Virus record (IMG/VR): IMGVR_UViG_3300002514_000197
Span: 1-27,578 of that record
Reading direction: 5' to 3' (one strand)
Source of the DNA: a virus
Length of the DNA: 27,578 nt
Shown: one piece after another, positions 4,743 through 9,745 of the stretch
How positions within the stretch are numbered: the stretch's first letter is position 1
Layout: every line of letters begins with the position of its first letter
Notes under the pieces: generated by a model
The model's input: only the letters and a program-made list of their open reading frames with translations
The model's database searches: none
What the model was told of the DNA's origin: nothing
Program-made: the position numbers and the translations under genes

Positions 4743-5699
4743 TTATCCTCCACCGCTCATTTCCTCCCTGATCGCCTCACCGTCGGGCGGGGGTGTGGTG
4801 GGGCCTTCTCCCGGTGTTCCCCCTGGGTCCGGCGGACGACCAACGACGTCCATCGGAGAGCCCTCGATGTCTTCCCTTTTACCCACCCAAGAAACCGGAT
4901 CCGCTGGGTGGAACTTGCTCTTTGCCGCTGTTTGCCAGCTTTTTAATGAGTAGCCATAAGGAAATCCATCCGCAAGAGGCACATCGTTATCAGAGCCTAC
5001 GTGTACCCACCCTGGGTCTACGTTGTGGATAGCCGTAAAGTCAATATTTATAGTATAGCCCTTTGGAACAGAGCCCAAAGACGTCTTTACCTTATCGGTA
5101 TGAGTCCACATCCCTATATCAAGAATCGGTGAGAACTGAAAGCTCTCAATGATCCCCGTCAGCCCTTCCGACTTCACATCATTGCCCCTAAGGGTAAACA
5201 ACTTTGATGACGGATTTTCAAACGCACCGTATGGGCCAAAACCAATTCTAAATTCCTTTCCATCTCTGCCGCCAGTGAAGCCGGTGCCCCCATCGGTTAT
5301 CATGGTTCCAAACAGTATTTTAAAATAGGGAGGTGATACGATGGATGTAGCCGACTTATCCCCCGGATGTGAGTCATAAGTAGGATACAGGTTGGCCGCC
5401 AAATAACTCAGCTTTTGTTGGAGGTGCATGCCGTCACCAAAATCCTGTGCCATGGCCTCCAATCCAAACGATAGCGTCCTTTGAGTGCCCTTGTAGGTGC
5501 AAATTGGATCCATTCTACCGTAAACTTCTTCTTTGTTATAATTTACTTTATAAGACTCATCAAAGCTCGTAAACGCAGCGAAGAAAGATATGTTCCAGCC
5601 GTGACTTATAGAATATATGTGTATAGTGCGCCCCGTACCTCTTGGTTTCGCAGGATTCCCTGAAGAGTCGCCGAACTCCTGGAAGTCTTTGAGTCCCAT
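4743..5699 (-). CDS. Baseplate / tube-initiator candidate (318 aa)
   Basis: Position directly after the tape measure and before a LysM-like wedge protein suggests a hub or tube-initiation protein (comparable with T4 gp48 or gp54), but I cannot assign it to one. Strand-rich core, including VNYNKEEVYGRMDPICTY (53-70) and a SFQFSPILDIG segment. A similar short motif, YGRID, occurs in the 448-aa protein of this window. The C-terminus (about 285-318) is Pro/Gly/Asp-rich and ends in GGG, probably disordered. The start is coupled to the tape measure stop. Confidence 0.72.
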   Translation of the reverse strand: MGLKDFQEFGDSSGNPAKPRGTGRTIHIYSISHGWNISFFAAFTSFDESYKVNYNKEEVYGRMDPICTYKGTQRTLSFGLEAMAQDFGDGMHLQQKLSYLAANLYPTYDSHPGDKSATSIVSPPYFKILFGTMITDGGTGFTGGRDGKEFRIGFGPYGAFENPSSKLFTLRGNDVKSEGLTGIIESFQFSPILDIGMWTHTDKVKTSLGSVPKGYTINIDFTAIHNVDPGWVHVGSDNDVPLADGFPYGYSLKSWQTAAKSKFHPADPVSWVGKREDIEGSPMDVVGRPPDPGGTPGEGPTTPPPDGEAIREEMSGGG

Positions 5700-7849
5700 T
5701 AGACGCCCTCTCTCCGGTCTATAAACCGACCTAACTCGCGGTGATCCAATATAATCTCATATGAATCCATCGCCTCCTTAACAGCTTTGGCTACCTTATC
5801 TGCCATCTTAGACGAATCTGTTCCTGTGCCTTGCTTTCCAGTCCATGCCCCCATAGCAGCTACTGGCGCAGCTACCGCCAGCGTCATGCCCGCTACTGCC
5901 ATCATTCCCATATTCATCGTATTAATCTTCGCTACGATATGATCAATAGAGGTCTCAATGACGCTCAACGGCTCCTGCATGTCCGTGATGGCTTTAATTC
6001 CAGATTCAAGCTTTGCCGTGGCTCGGGCGGCTTCACTAATTCTCTTCGCCTTCTTGGTGGTCTCTCCATCTTTGTCATCACCTCTTCCAATCAACCAGCC
6101 AATACCTTGAGCAGCAAACCCTATCGCCGCAATCACCCCCGCAATAGTAAGCAGGATAGGTATTAATTTTAAGGACGCTTGCCCAAACGCTGCGACACCA
6201 GGAGCAGCAGCAGCCATCATCGCCCCAAGGCCTCCCACGGCCGGGGCGGTCACACTTACGGCGGGCAGAAGCGCACCAAGGATCGCCCCAAACATGGCTA
6301 GTTTACCAACCAGCATCACAACAGCAATGGTTATACCGGCTACGGGTATTAACCACCCACCCCACGCTTCATTCCATTCAAGAATGAAACCTAAGATGTC
6401 GGCCATCAACTGACGAAGAGGCGCCAAAGATACCGCATAGGCTTCTGCCACCTGCTTTCTTCTCATTTCAAGGGTTAAGTTCGCCTGAGAGGCCTTTTCG
6501 AGTGCCTCTTGGCTCTGGTTGTATTTATTCATCTCTTGCAGCCCTCGCTGATACGTATCAAAGGTTCCCGAAAACATCTTGTTCGCAAGCGCCATATCGG
6601 TAATGCCAGCAGCGTTTGCAATTGCCTGTCGCTGGAATCTATTCATCGATTTCCAGCTTGTATTGGACGACTCAACGGCCTGCATCATAATCTTTATTCT
6701 TTCGTCTTCACTTGCATTAAGCAGGTCCACCGAATTAATAAGGGGACCGCCCAATATAGAATTCAACCGCCCTGCTGCTGTCGCAGCATTTTCAAACGTA
6801 TCATATTGAGACATGGCTCCCATCAATTCAGACACCGAAGCGCCAAGTTGCTTAGACGCAGTTGCCATATTACGAAAGACCTTATCTGCCTGTTGTCCGA
6901 ACTTGGCTAATGCGGGGCCTGTTTGGTTTAAATCTTGAATCATCTGCGCGGGGGGGACTTCAATGTCCCTGGCCAAGTTAGCAATACCGGTTAAAGACTG
7001 TTTGCTTGCATCAGCAGACTTTCCAAAAGATTTCATTAGTGTCTGCATCGCTTGCGATGAGTCAACACCGGAAACACCAAGCCCGTCAAGAGCGATGGTT
7101 AATCTCCCGATACTGGCTCTTTGCTCTCCTGTTAGGAGCGTAAATTCAGTAAAACCGGTAAAGAGGTCCCTATACGCTCGTGCAGTAGCCGCTTGTCCTG
7201 TCGCCAACGCCCCAGTGTCCCTAACGAGGCTCCTTATCTCACCATCATACTTTCTAGCTGCGCCAGTTGTTCTACCAAACTCAGCGAGGAGAATTTCTTG
7301 TTCAACAGAAACCTTCTTTGTATTATCAGCAAACTTACTTAATAGCGTAATACCTAAATTGGCGGGACTAAGGGCATCTTTCATCCCCTTCTTAAGGTCT
7401 AAAAGCGCGCCTTTAATATCGCCCGCCTTATGCATTTTCTCCATCTTACCAAGAAAGCTCTCTTCAAAACTCTTAATGCCAAACTTGCTTCTAACTTTAT
7501 CTGCGAAATCCTTATACCTATCCTGTAACTCACCGATCTTACCAATCTGTTGGTCAAGCTCTGCGTTGATTCTTCTGAGGTCCGCGATGGTTTGAGCGGA
7601 TTTCTTTCTGTCTTCATTGGACGCCCCCCCCGCCACCTCCATCTTCATCTGCTCTTGTCTTATGAGAGTATCGTTCAGCGCGATACTCTCTCTAAGAGAT
7701 TGCGCTGCTCTATCTCGTGCCTGATTAAGCTTGTCGTACTCATCCGTCGCGTCACTAACGTGCTCGGCCTGCTCTTTTACAAGTTCATTGACTTGTTTCA
7801 GCAATTGCGTTTGTCTGTCCAGAACCTCTGGGCTTGGTGTATCAGCCAT
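5699..7849 (-). CDS. Tail tape measure protein
   Basis: This sets tail length and is ejected with DNA. It is 716 aa: a long charged coiled-coil start (about 10-120), a mixed helical middle rich in Ala, Ser and Thr, a strongly hydrophobic segment (about 496-589, including IPVAGITIAVVMLVG and LIPILLTIAGVIAAIGFAA), and a helical tail. Composition, hydrophobic patch and place after the chaperone pair identify it; no metallo-peptidase or lysozyme domain was seen. T4 gp29 is 590 aa, so a tail somewhat longer than T4's is expected if the usual length relation holds. The stop shares one base with the next start (TAATG). Confidence 0.85.
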   Translation of the reverse strand: MADTPSPEVLDRQTQLLKQVNELVKEQAEHVSDATDEYDKLNQARDRAAQSLRESIALNDTLIRQEQMKMEVAGGASNEDRKKSAQTIADLRRINAELDQQIGKIGELQDRYKDFADKVRSKFGIKSFEESFLGKMEKMHKAGDIKGALLDLKKGMKDALSPANLGITLLSKFADNTKKVSVEQEILLAEFGRTTGAARKYDGEIRSLVRDTGALATGQAATARAYRDLFTGFTEFTLLTGEQRASIGRLTIALDGLGVSGVDSSQAMQTLMKSFGKSADASKQSLTGIANLARDIEVPPAQMIQDLNQTGPALAKFGQQADKVFRNMATASKQLGASVSELMGAMSQYDTFENAATAAGRLNSILGGPLINSVDLLNASEDERIKIMMQAVESSNTSWKSMNRFQRQAIANAAGITDMALANKMFSGTFDTYQRGLQEMNKYNQSQEALEKASQANLTLEMRRKQVAEAYAVSLAPLRQLMADILGFILEWNEAWGGWLIPVAGITIAVVMLVGKLAMFGAILGALLPAVSVTAPAVGGLGAMMAAAAPGVAAFGQASLKLIPILLTIAGVIAAIGFAAQGIGWLIGRGDDKDGETTKKAKRISEAARATAKLESGIKAITDMQEPLSVIETSIDHIVAKINTMNMGMMAVAGMTLAVAAPVAAMGAWTGKQGTGTDSSKMADKVAKAVKEAMDSYEIILDHRELGRFIDRREGV

Positions 7850-7855
7850 CGATCA

Positions 7856-8176
7856 TCACCCTATCGGCCATTCCATACCGGTTTGCGTTTTAAAGTTCCT
7901 GGTTGCTACATCCAGATATGCCTTCTGCCGGTAGGTTCTAGGATCCTCAAGGCCGTTCTCTATGACGCTTGACATATATTTCTTTTCTCTCATAAGAGTC
8001 TTCAAAAAGCTGTCAATCTGTCCCCTCGTGCCCTTTATCTTATGGTTTGGTAGATCCCTTCCAGCGAACAGGGCCTGCAAGCTCTGCACGGTAACCTTAA
8101 TCAATGCTTGATTTCTTATATCAAGCATATCAAATATATCCATCCCTTCAGACAAGTCTAAGATCTCTTTAGCCAT
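7856..8176 (-). CDS. Uncharacterised 106-aa protein between chaperone and tape measure
   Basis: No family is recognised. The protein is mainly helical, with an N-terminal acidic helix (EILDLSEGMDIFDMLDIRN) and a basic middle (LPNHKIKGTRGQ), and no membrane segment. The start has a strong GGAGG site eight bases upstream. Its stop lies seven bases before the tape measure start. Place between chaperone and tape measure suggests a tail-assembly factor, but this is inference only. Confidence 0.82.
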   Translation of the reverse strand: MAKEILDLSEGMDIFDMLDIRNQALIKVTVQSLQALFAGRDLPNHKIKGTRGQIDSFLKTLMREKKYMSSVIENGLEDPRTYRQKAYLDVATRNFKTQTGMEWPIG

Positions 8177-8192
8177 TATAAAAACCTCCGGT

Positions 8193-8231
8193 CAAAGTAA
8201 ATAGTTTTCATATGAAAAACTTCTTACTTTG
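8193..8231. repeat. Long imperfect inverted repeat after the chaperone gene
   Basis: An almost symmetric 39-base inverted repeat: outer arms CAAAGTAA and TTACTTTG (8 bp), one wobble and one mismatch, then inner arms AGTTTT and AAAACT around CATATG with a single bulged T. It begins at the stop codon of the shifted chaperone frame and ends just before the strong ribosome-binding site of the 106-aa gene. There is no T-run, so it is not an ordinary intrinsic terminator. RNA stability, processing or a protein-binding operator are possible roles. Confidence 0.7.
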
Positions 8232-9211
8232 TAGACCTCTTAATCGCATCTCCCTCATCCTTGAGCTGCTGAGCAAGCCTTGCAACAAACCAATTACGAA
8301 GTCCTACCGGCAAGTTATACGCCTCCGAAAGGCTCCACCCTCCGTAATATTTTAACGCAAAAAACTGTTCGTATACCGATTCAATATATTCTTCACTCAA
8401 ACCAAAAAAAGTCCGGCCCCAGCCTAACCTCCAGTTCAGCTTCGTGGCCACATGAACCGCAGACAAAGTCTCTAATAAAGTCAAGATTGGGTGTCACCTT
8501 TTTATACGTATTCCTCAAATATTTAGCATCCCTGGCGGGCATTCCGTCAATAGCCTTATGGACAACTCTCTTGTCTGTCTCGTCGTTAATTTTGACCACA
8601 AACTGCTTTAATTGCCCGGTAACAGAATCACTGTCCTTCAACTCGCCCAAAGCCTTCTCATCATGACCATTAATCGGCCTGCACAAAACAGCGAAATTTG
8701 ATGCAGGAAGCACCACCGTGAATAATCCATCCTCATCCAGAGTCACGTCGAGATCTTCAAGCTGCTGTTGCCACAAGTTACTTTCAATCTCCTGTAGATC
8801 GTATATTTTATCGCTCTGGGACATGCAAAGCGGGCATATGGTTTTTGTTCGATACTCCTCTCCATAACCACTTACTCTCGTGGCAAGGATTATAGCATTT
8901 CTATCCCCGACCAATAAGTCATCAGATTTTATACGCCGATCTACAATAATACTATTCATCAGCCTATCAAAAACGATTCCTTTCTTGATAAAAGACTTAT
9001 TAGTCAGGATGTCTTCTTCTTTGGCGGTCATTTGCCTTATCTCTATGGTATCCACGTTGTGAAGTGGATGTTCTTCCGGATAAAACAAGCCTTTTGATGG
9101 CAGGTCAACAAACTCTGTCGGAGTGACAAACTCCAAGCCCCCACCTGCCTGGGGGGCGTCTATGTTATCTGGTTTTTTTCCTAGTCCAAGTCTCTCTAAA
9201 TTTCTTGACAT
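8224..9211 (-). CDS. Putative frameshift fusion: gp26-like protein plus C-terminal extension (about 328 aa)
   Basis: The frame from 8484 to 8224 lies +1 (equivalently -2) relative to the gp26-like gene and overlaps its end by 92 bases. It lacks any ATG, and its most upstream possible start, TTG 8484, has only a poor ribosome-binding site. At GAC TTT TTT TGG, a run of seven T at 8404-8410, a +1 slip of tRNA-Phe would re-pair perfectly and read GGT next. The fusion would have 269 residues of the first frame plus 59: GLSEEYIESVYEQFFALKY, YGGWSLSEAYNLPV, and a helical, charged end. The extension lies directly before the small gene and tape measure. The frameshift itself is inference. Confidence 0.6.
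8393..9211 (-). CDS. gp26-like baseplate/tail-assembly chaperone, frame-0 product
   Basis: A 272-aa protein with the features I associate with the T4 gp26-type baseplate family: FVDLPSKGLFYPEEHPL (35-50) and an N-terminal helical MTAKEEDILTN (61-71). Two zinc knuckles, CPLC (126-129) and CGSCGHE (251-257), probably bind one metal. T4 gp26 with gp51 helps assemble the baseplate hub. The stop at 8393 is overlapped by another frame that carries a conserved-looking 59-residue tail, so this is most likely the short product of a frameshift pair analogous to lambda gpG/gpGT. It sits between tube and tape measure, the usual chaperone place. Confidence 0.85.
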   Translation of the reverse strand: MSRNLERLGLGKKPDNIDAPQAGGGLEFVTPTEFVDLPSKGLFYPEEHPLHNVDTIEIRQMTAKEEDILTNKSFIKKGIVFDRLMNSIIVDRRIKSDDLLVGDRNAIILATRVSGYGEEYRTKTICPLCMSQSDKIYDLQEIESNLWQQQLEDLDVTLDEDGLFTVVLPASNFAVLCRPINGHDEKALGELKDSDSVTGQLKQFVVKINDETDKRVVHKAIDGMPARDAKYLRNTYKKVTPNLDFIRDFVCGSCGHEAELEVRLGPDFFWFE

Positions 9212-9232: not shown

Positions 9233-9745
9233 TTAACTTGTCTCGCTGAACCCAGCATAATCATAACGTACCGTTATAGATAGTTCAACAAAACCATCAT
9301 CTTCGTATGACACATCTCCCCACGCAACTCTTTCAATCCACGCATTGTGTAGCGTCCATTTGTCCTGGGTCGCACCGTCAACATCTATTTGGGTCACGGT
9401 TATGTCGCCAATTCCCATACCACCGGACTTGTTCAGAGAAAGATCGAGAGCAGACGCATCGGTTGGCATCGCATATCCCAGGCTAGTTGTTATATAGTCC
9501 CAAAGAACTGCTGCGCTGTGGTTCGTTGCATCGCCAGAACCAAGATCGACAAAAGTCATCTCTACCGGCTCCCAAGTGGGCATCCCAGGGAAATAAAATT
9601 TGTGGTTTAGGTAATTATGCTCGTGCGCATTAACCGAAAAGACAGGCTTGACTGCCGTTTTAGCTGTTAACGGGTCCAAGGCCCCCACATCAACCTTAAA
9701 TCTATTCTTTCTCTTGGGATTTACTATGCTATTCCAAAATGCCAT
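9233..9745 (-). CDS. Tail tube protein, T4 gp19-like
   Basis: This 170-aa protein (T4 gp19 is 163 aa) is the inner tube subunit. It has the usual layout: an N-terminal helix MAFWNSIVNPKRKNRFKV, a GMPTWEPVEMTFVDLGS block as in other tube proteins (PTWEP-x-x-x-T), a long loop, and a final strand pair with NAWIERVAWGDVSYEDDG and ELSITVRYDYA. It directly follows the sheath gene, with a GGAG ribosome-binding site. Confidence 0.94.
   Translation of the reverse strand: MAFWNSIVNPKRKNRFKVDVGALDPLTAKTAVKPVFSVNAHEHNYLNHKFYFPGMPTWEPVEMTFVDLGSGDATNHSAAVLWDYITTSLGYAMPTDASALDLSLNKSGGMGIGDITVTQIDVDGATQDKWTLHNAWIERVAWGDVSYEDDGFVELSITVRYDYAGFSETS

Follow-up and report, generated by a model that had tools for sequence, protein, structure and literature searches.

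A probable programmed +1 frameshift in a gp26-type phage gene and its likely relation to T4 gp26 and gp51

The gp26-type gene of the viral DNA analyzed here probably yields two proteins through a +1 ribosomal slip, forming a chaperone-like pair whose two products T4 would make from two genes, 26 and 51, after duplication. The window, by which we mean the whole 27,578-nt stretch (IMG/VR record IMGVR_UViG_3300002514_000197), carries this gene near a probable tape measure gene, and comparison with relatives strongly supports programmed +1 frameshifting at a T-run close to its end. We infer a slip of limited efficiency: most ribosomes would terminate at TGA to give the 272-aa gp26 product, and a fraction would slip by +1 while peptidyl-tRNA-Phe sits on UUU in the P site and the A site presents UGG, giving a 328-aa fusion of gp26 and an extension. 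By position and homology, the pair would act like lambda gpG/gpGT, as a tape measure chaperone and a rarer extended form, presumably binding the tape measure and tube proteins. The locus comprises the following features:

5699..7849, minus strand: probable tape measure protein, 716 aa (from position and hydropathy)
7856..8176, minus strand: 106-aa ORF with no assigned function, lying after the extension and ahead of the tape measure candidate
8224..8403, minus strand: +1-frame extension, 59 codons plus stop, GLSEEYIESVYEQFFALKYYGGWSLSEAYNLPVGLRNWFVARLAQQLKDEGDAIKRSTK (open frame; stop at 8224-8226)
8393..9211, minus strand: gp26-like gene, unshifted product of 272 aa (PF12322 T4_baseplate; phrog_150 baseplate hub)
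8404..8410, minus strand: T7 slip run (P-site TTT at 8405-8407, A-site TGG at 8402-8404)
8415..8424, minus strand: short 5′ hairpin GGC-UGGG-GCC (from synonymous constraint and folding energy)
8428..8432, minus strand: SD-like GGAGG upstream of the slip site (GAG codon invariant in 54/54 lineages)
9233..9745, minus strand: tail tube protein (gp19-like), preceding gp26 (phrog_4542, E 1.8e-21)

Read along the minus strand, the order is therefore tail tube, gp26-like gene, +1-frame extension, 106-aa ORF and probable tape measure gene, which places the pair between the tail tube and tape measure genes, as for G/GT pairs, with the 106-aa ORF intervening. The gp26-like gene scores 38.1 bits against PF12322 (T4_baseplate, gp26/gp51), above the curated cut-off of 24.5, and its product has an AlphaFold model with a pLDDT of 84.6. 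The probable tape measure protein has hydrophobic segments at 495-541, 552-570 and 647-669 and gave no match in a Pfam search; in relatives, a homologous ORF sits after gp26. Phages SP-15, LIS04 and immuto share the order tube, gp26, extension, tape measure, with the tape measure annotated downstream of gp26. A counterpart of the 106-aa ORF is otherwise present in a single relative (L001). Rhodothermus phage RM378 has its tail tube gene downstream of gp26 on the opposite strand and retains the T7GG +1 site.

The gp26-like gene ends in CTG GAG GTT AGG CTG GGG CCG GAC TTT TTT TGG TTT GAG TGA, with its stop codon at 8393-8395. The initial annotation had correctly placed T7 and GAC TTT TTT TGG before this stop and numbered the residues of the fusion; the reading frames also confirm its statement that the gp26-like frame ends inside a shifted ORF with no ATG, the +1 frame being open from 8403 to its own stop. 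A +1 slip on the TTT before TGG would give ...PDFF-GLSEEYIESVYEQFFALKYYGGWSLSEAYNLPVGLRNWFVARLAQQL.... Upstream TTG and GTG codons are present in the shifted frame of the window, with no convincing SD ahead of any of them. Because TTTTTTTGG occurs twice in the window against 0.78 expected, which by itself is unremarkable, the case depends on comparison among relatives. A chance T-run was rejected, as its conservation in 80/80 relatives exceeds chance.

These 80 window-type relatives came from a scan of IMG/VR (best identity 67%, most others 43-50%). Every one of them carries TTT TTT TGG or TTC TTT TGG (TTY TTT TGG) shortly ahead of the gp26 stop, and in all of them the +1 frame runs on, a few contigs ending early. 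As in a G/GT pair, a second ORF in another frame thus accompanies a slippery site conserved ahead of the first stop, and of the T-run and frame offset, whose conservation the initial annotation had put forward as a check, the former is kept as TTY TTT TGG and the latter unchanged. The extension has the same consensus in all window-type relatives, GL..EY...YEQFF.LKY.GGWS..EAYNLP.GLR. The P-site Phe codon is TTT in each of 54 non-redundant lineages (TTT usage 80%, p = 4e-6). T7GG followed by a +1 extension is also found in the isolated phages Microcystis Mel-JY01 and Rhodothermus RM378.

A sister group, obtained by a second scan, from Flavobacterium phage immuto, provided 79 readable relatives, every one of which has the +1 extension. 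Their P- and A-site codons are TTT TGG (40), CTT TGG (34), CTA TGG (4) and CTT TAC (1), the last two combinations occurring in L199, L210, L221, L224 and L227. Among non-redundant sequences, Leu at the slip position is encoded by CTT in 24 of 26, where CTT makes up 22% of Leu codons and TTA is the common one. No window-type or immuto-type relative showed TTC in the P site, a codon that would abolish +1 re-pairing. The P site is thus of the RF2 type (CUU or UUU, then U): it is TTT in 54/54 of the window family, and in the sister group 74/79 have either TTT or CTT followed by TGG. Because TTT TGG and CTT TGG both re-pair on UUU, their alternation supports a +1 slip and disfavors a −2 slip or transcriptional slippage in those lineages. 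CTA TGG does not re-pair after +1 and counts against a +1 slip in four sister sequences.

Among more distant relatives, phages SP-15 (Bacillus), LIS04 (Listeria) and GXN1 (Streptococcus) have a +1-frame extension after gp26 without TTTTGG; NCC CGA before the stop, common to the three, could be a different +1 site. Of two huge-phage relatives, LR756508 has a +1-frame extension with no obvious slip site; in LR756511 the ORF is separate, with its start in an overlapping TAATG. Scans from the gp26 of RM378 and of SP-15 each retrieved only itself.

The extension is under purifying selection in the shifted frame only. Window-type extensions have a pN/pS of 0.21 in the +1 frame versus 1.1 and 2.2 in the two remaining phases, and the shifted-frame values are 0.42 for the immuto type and 0.26 for the cyanophage type described below; across all three types, the other two phases give 0.9-2.2. 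The shifted frame lacks ATG, GTG and TTG altogether in three non-redundant window-type lineages (L013, L022 and L070), and in seven more the first start codon lies at extension codon 42-52. With start codons lacking or far internal in these lineages, internal initiation cannot be the general mechanism.

Upstream of the slip site, the GAG codon of the SD-like element is fixed against a usage of 34% (p about 1e-25), and further codons constrained at synonymous positions between −24 and −4 include CCG (50/52) and GCG (46/51). Together, these gp26 codons form TGGAGG and a GC hairpin, which in most relatives is of a stronger CCGC-loop-GCGG type. Sliding synonymous resampling gives a mean z of about 0 over the gene and −3.4 to −5.3 at the hairpin only, with synonymous constraint and hairpin restricted to −27 to −4 of the slip site. 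Hairpin variants move register yet fold (e.g. CGGC-UGGG-GCCG in L001), folding is weak in L013, L024 and L070, and pair counting over lineages found zero double compensatory changes as a sign of covariation in the 5′ hairpin. The GGAGG lies at −25 to −21, a linear spacing of 20 nt from the P site, and the A-site codon is UGG; RF2-type shifts have an SD about 3 nt upstream and a stop codon in the A site, and 3 nt is the SD spacing known to stimulate +1 shifts (PMC5009743). Folding of the hairpin may reduce the effective spacing of the SD to about 7 nt, and the slip is probably stimulated by these two upstream elements, GGAGG and the GC hairpin.

Cyanophage gp26 genes carry a textbook signal for −1 frameshifting (U UUU UUC), predicted to lead into the ORF annotated as gp51. 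A scan from the gp26 of Synechococcus phage DSL-LC02 gave 79 readable loci, and all 79 have T TTT TTY 0-2 codons before the stop, with a −1 frame encoding FF..MAHtnLESYYKiNFALmQHHKYSLTEIENMiPWERe.Yl.LL. GAG is present at −15 in 37 of 41, and the remaining four GAA codons all precede the rare GGG, so the SD-like core is kept; its distance to the heptamer is 10 nt, and SDs that act in −1 shifts lie 9-14 nt upstream (PMC5009743). A stem-loop begins 5 nt downstream in most loci (resampling z about −3.5, to −3.6), with 83% of cells paired versus 27-45% when slid. S-PM2 and P-SSM2 show the same, and the predicted fusion junction of S-PM2 is SFFR then ISMFYNNLENYYR. The −1 site also occurs unchanged in Aeromonas phage Ah1, with similar ones in Vibrio ValKK3 and Sinorhizobium phiN3. 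The cyanophage extension, which matches 533 INPHARED records, either goes unannotated in these genomes or appears as a gp51 gene of its own, in most cases starting at an ATG inside the downstream stem. The −1 direction usual for G/GT pairs is thus found in this sister group, and +1 in the window. The initial annotation had considered a +1 or −2 event in a gp26-type protein less usual; the case is less isolated than it suggested, with sister lineages arriving at that fusion through a −1 shift, an overlapping ORF or duplication.

Homopolymers are error-prone in sequencing, and an assembly or sequencing indel in the T-run would mean that gp26 and its extension are one normal ORF. This explanation has a negligible chance of being right: more than 150 independent contigs and the isolated phages share the same offset at differing sites (TTT, TTC, CTT), and the C-interrupted sites rule it out. 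Such sites also bear on a Mu-like −2 programmed frameshift on the T7 run, the option that the initial annotation had given beside +1. It would enter the same reading frame and is permitted by T7 in the window, but lineages with TTC TTT TGG or TTT CTT TGG hold the frame and cannot re-pair after −2, and we regard it as very improbable. Transcriptional slippage, in which an RNA hairpin followed by U7 causes the polymerase to drop one U and the shortened mRNA encodes the fusion, fits the GC hairpin found 2 nt before an uninterrupted T7 in most window-type lineages, an arrangement resembling the stem-loop-driven slippage of a Roseiflexus IS (PMC5009743). However, the frame is unchanged by TTCTTTTGG in 6/54 lineages and by TTTCTTTGG in 24/50 sister lineages, and the restriction to NTT-TGG tracks codons rather than run length, making this an unlikely source of the fusion.

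The second frame might instead be a small gene of its own, with an internal start or with translation coupled to termination at the end of gp26, in line with its annotation as gp51 in cyanophages. Overlapping starts in the distant relatives Cygsa01 and LR756511, and an ATG just past the gp26 stop in many cyanophages, agree with such an arrangement. Against it, a start codon is absent or deep in the conserved domain in some window-type relatives, the slip sites are near-invariant, and the cyanophage ATG sits in the stem of the downstream hairpin; we consider it quite unlikely. A programmed +1 frameshift at the T7 run of the gp26-type gene, as the initial annotation proposed, is by comparison supported by conservation of site and frame and by selection on the extension.

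The same annotation had suggested that T4 gp26 and gp51 could be tied to the general tail-chaperone scheme, and this tie holds by profile comparison. T4 gp26 is a paralog of gp51 (pairwise blastp 2e-6; profile E 1.7e-21), both belonging to PF12322, which covers only residues 1-201 of gp51. By profile-profile hhalign (single-sequence hhalign against T4 gp51 was uninformative), gp51 aligns end-to-end and collinearly with the cyanophage gp26-extension fusion (probability 98.7%, E 1.5e-16). Its last 50 aa match the cyanophage extension (97%, E 9e-11), and a control comparison of this tail with gp26 gave no match (0.1%). T4 gp26, in turn, matches the unshifted cyanophage gp26 (E 4e-17). As gp51 aligns with the fusion and gp26 with the unshifted product, T4 seems to encode each product in a gene of its own (26 and 51) as a result of duplication, the direction of change presumably running from one gene to two. 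As duplication would predict, Enterobacter phage EC-F2 has a gp51-like gene and a gp26-like gene in tandem, both on the same strand, versus divergent genes in T4.

The cyanophage and window-type fusions are also collinear (95.8%, E 6.5e-9), with an extension-to-extension probability of 87%. Compared directly, the profiles of the window-type extension and the gp51 tail gave no hhalign match (0.5%), and the link from the window to gp51 is therefore indirect, running through cyanophages only. Structures predicted separately for the window gp26 and a T4-type gp51 have their secondary structure elements in shared order, the latter with three additional C-terminal helices from residue 208, and both match gp26-family models in BFVD. 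A PDB fold search found no significant match to known tail chaperones; the HK97 chaperone 2ob9 ranked second, weakly (E 1.4, probability 0.14).

It was known already that gp26 and gp51 serve as chaperones of hub assembly and belong to one Pfam family, that cyanophages have a small gp51, and that G/GT chaperones made by frameshifting occur in most long-tailed phages "except T4". No earlier publication in the open-access literature searched describes a frameshift in gp26 or derives gp51 from one; within that literature, the frameshift link, its two directions and T4 gp26/gp51 as separated products are apparently new. We lean towards gp26/gp51 being the T4-type form of the frameshifted chaperone pair, realized by +1, −1, an overlapping gene or duplication, with a +1 signal of a new kind in which a hairpin shortens the effective SD-to-slip distance to ~7 nt. 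If so, T4 is no exception: its gp26 and gp51 are the two parts of one system that became fixed as individual genes, and gp51, which is not part of the final particle (PMC3004832), gains a testable role. This would also account for the report that no tape measure chaperone was detected in a T4-superfamily genome (PMC6509524); the gp26/gp51 pair would be misannotated in many cyanophage records.

Several known systems share parts of this arrangement. Like RF2 (prfB), where CUU_U is the conserved rule and UUU_U a minority (PMC5009743), the +1 gp26-type genes have a P-site CUU/UUU followed by U, a +1 direction and an upstream SD-like sequence; unlike RF2, they have UGG rather than a stop codon in the A site, and a hairpin between the site and an SD 20 nt away. 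Listeria phage PSA and Bacillus phage SPP1 also have frameshifts in structural genes, +1 in PSA, but these extend capsid or tail tube proteins (in PSA at proline codons) rather than a chaperone. In Kyanoviridae, cyanophage gp26 and small gp51 belong to the same protein family with a homologous extension, in contrast using −1 at U UUU UUC with an SD and downstream stem-loop, and annotated as two genes. T4 gp26 corresponds to the unshifted product and gp51 to the gp26-extension fusion of cyanophages, though as two genes on opposite strands without a frameshift. Lambda gpG/gpGT (Xu, Hendrix and Duda 2004) likewise has two overlapping ORFs located between the tail tube and tape measure genes, with a small extension and a slippery site conserved close to the end of the first ORF; here, the first protein is larger and of the T4_baseplate family, and the shift, as predicted from sequence, would be +1 at UUU UGG rather than −1.
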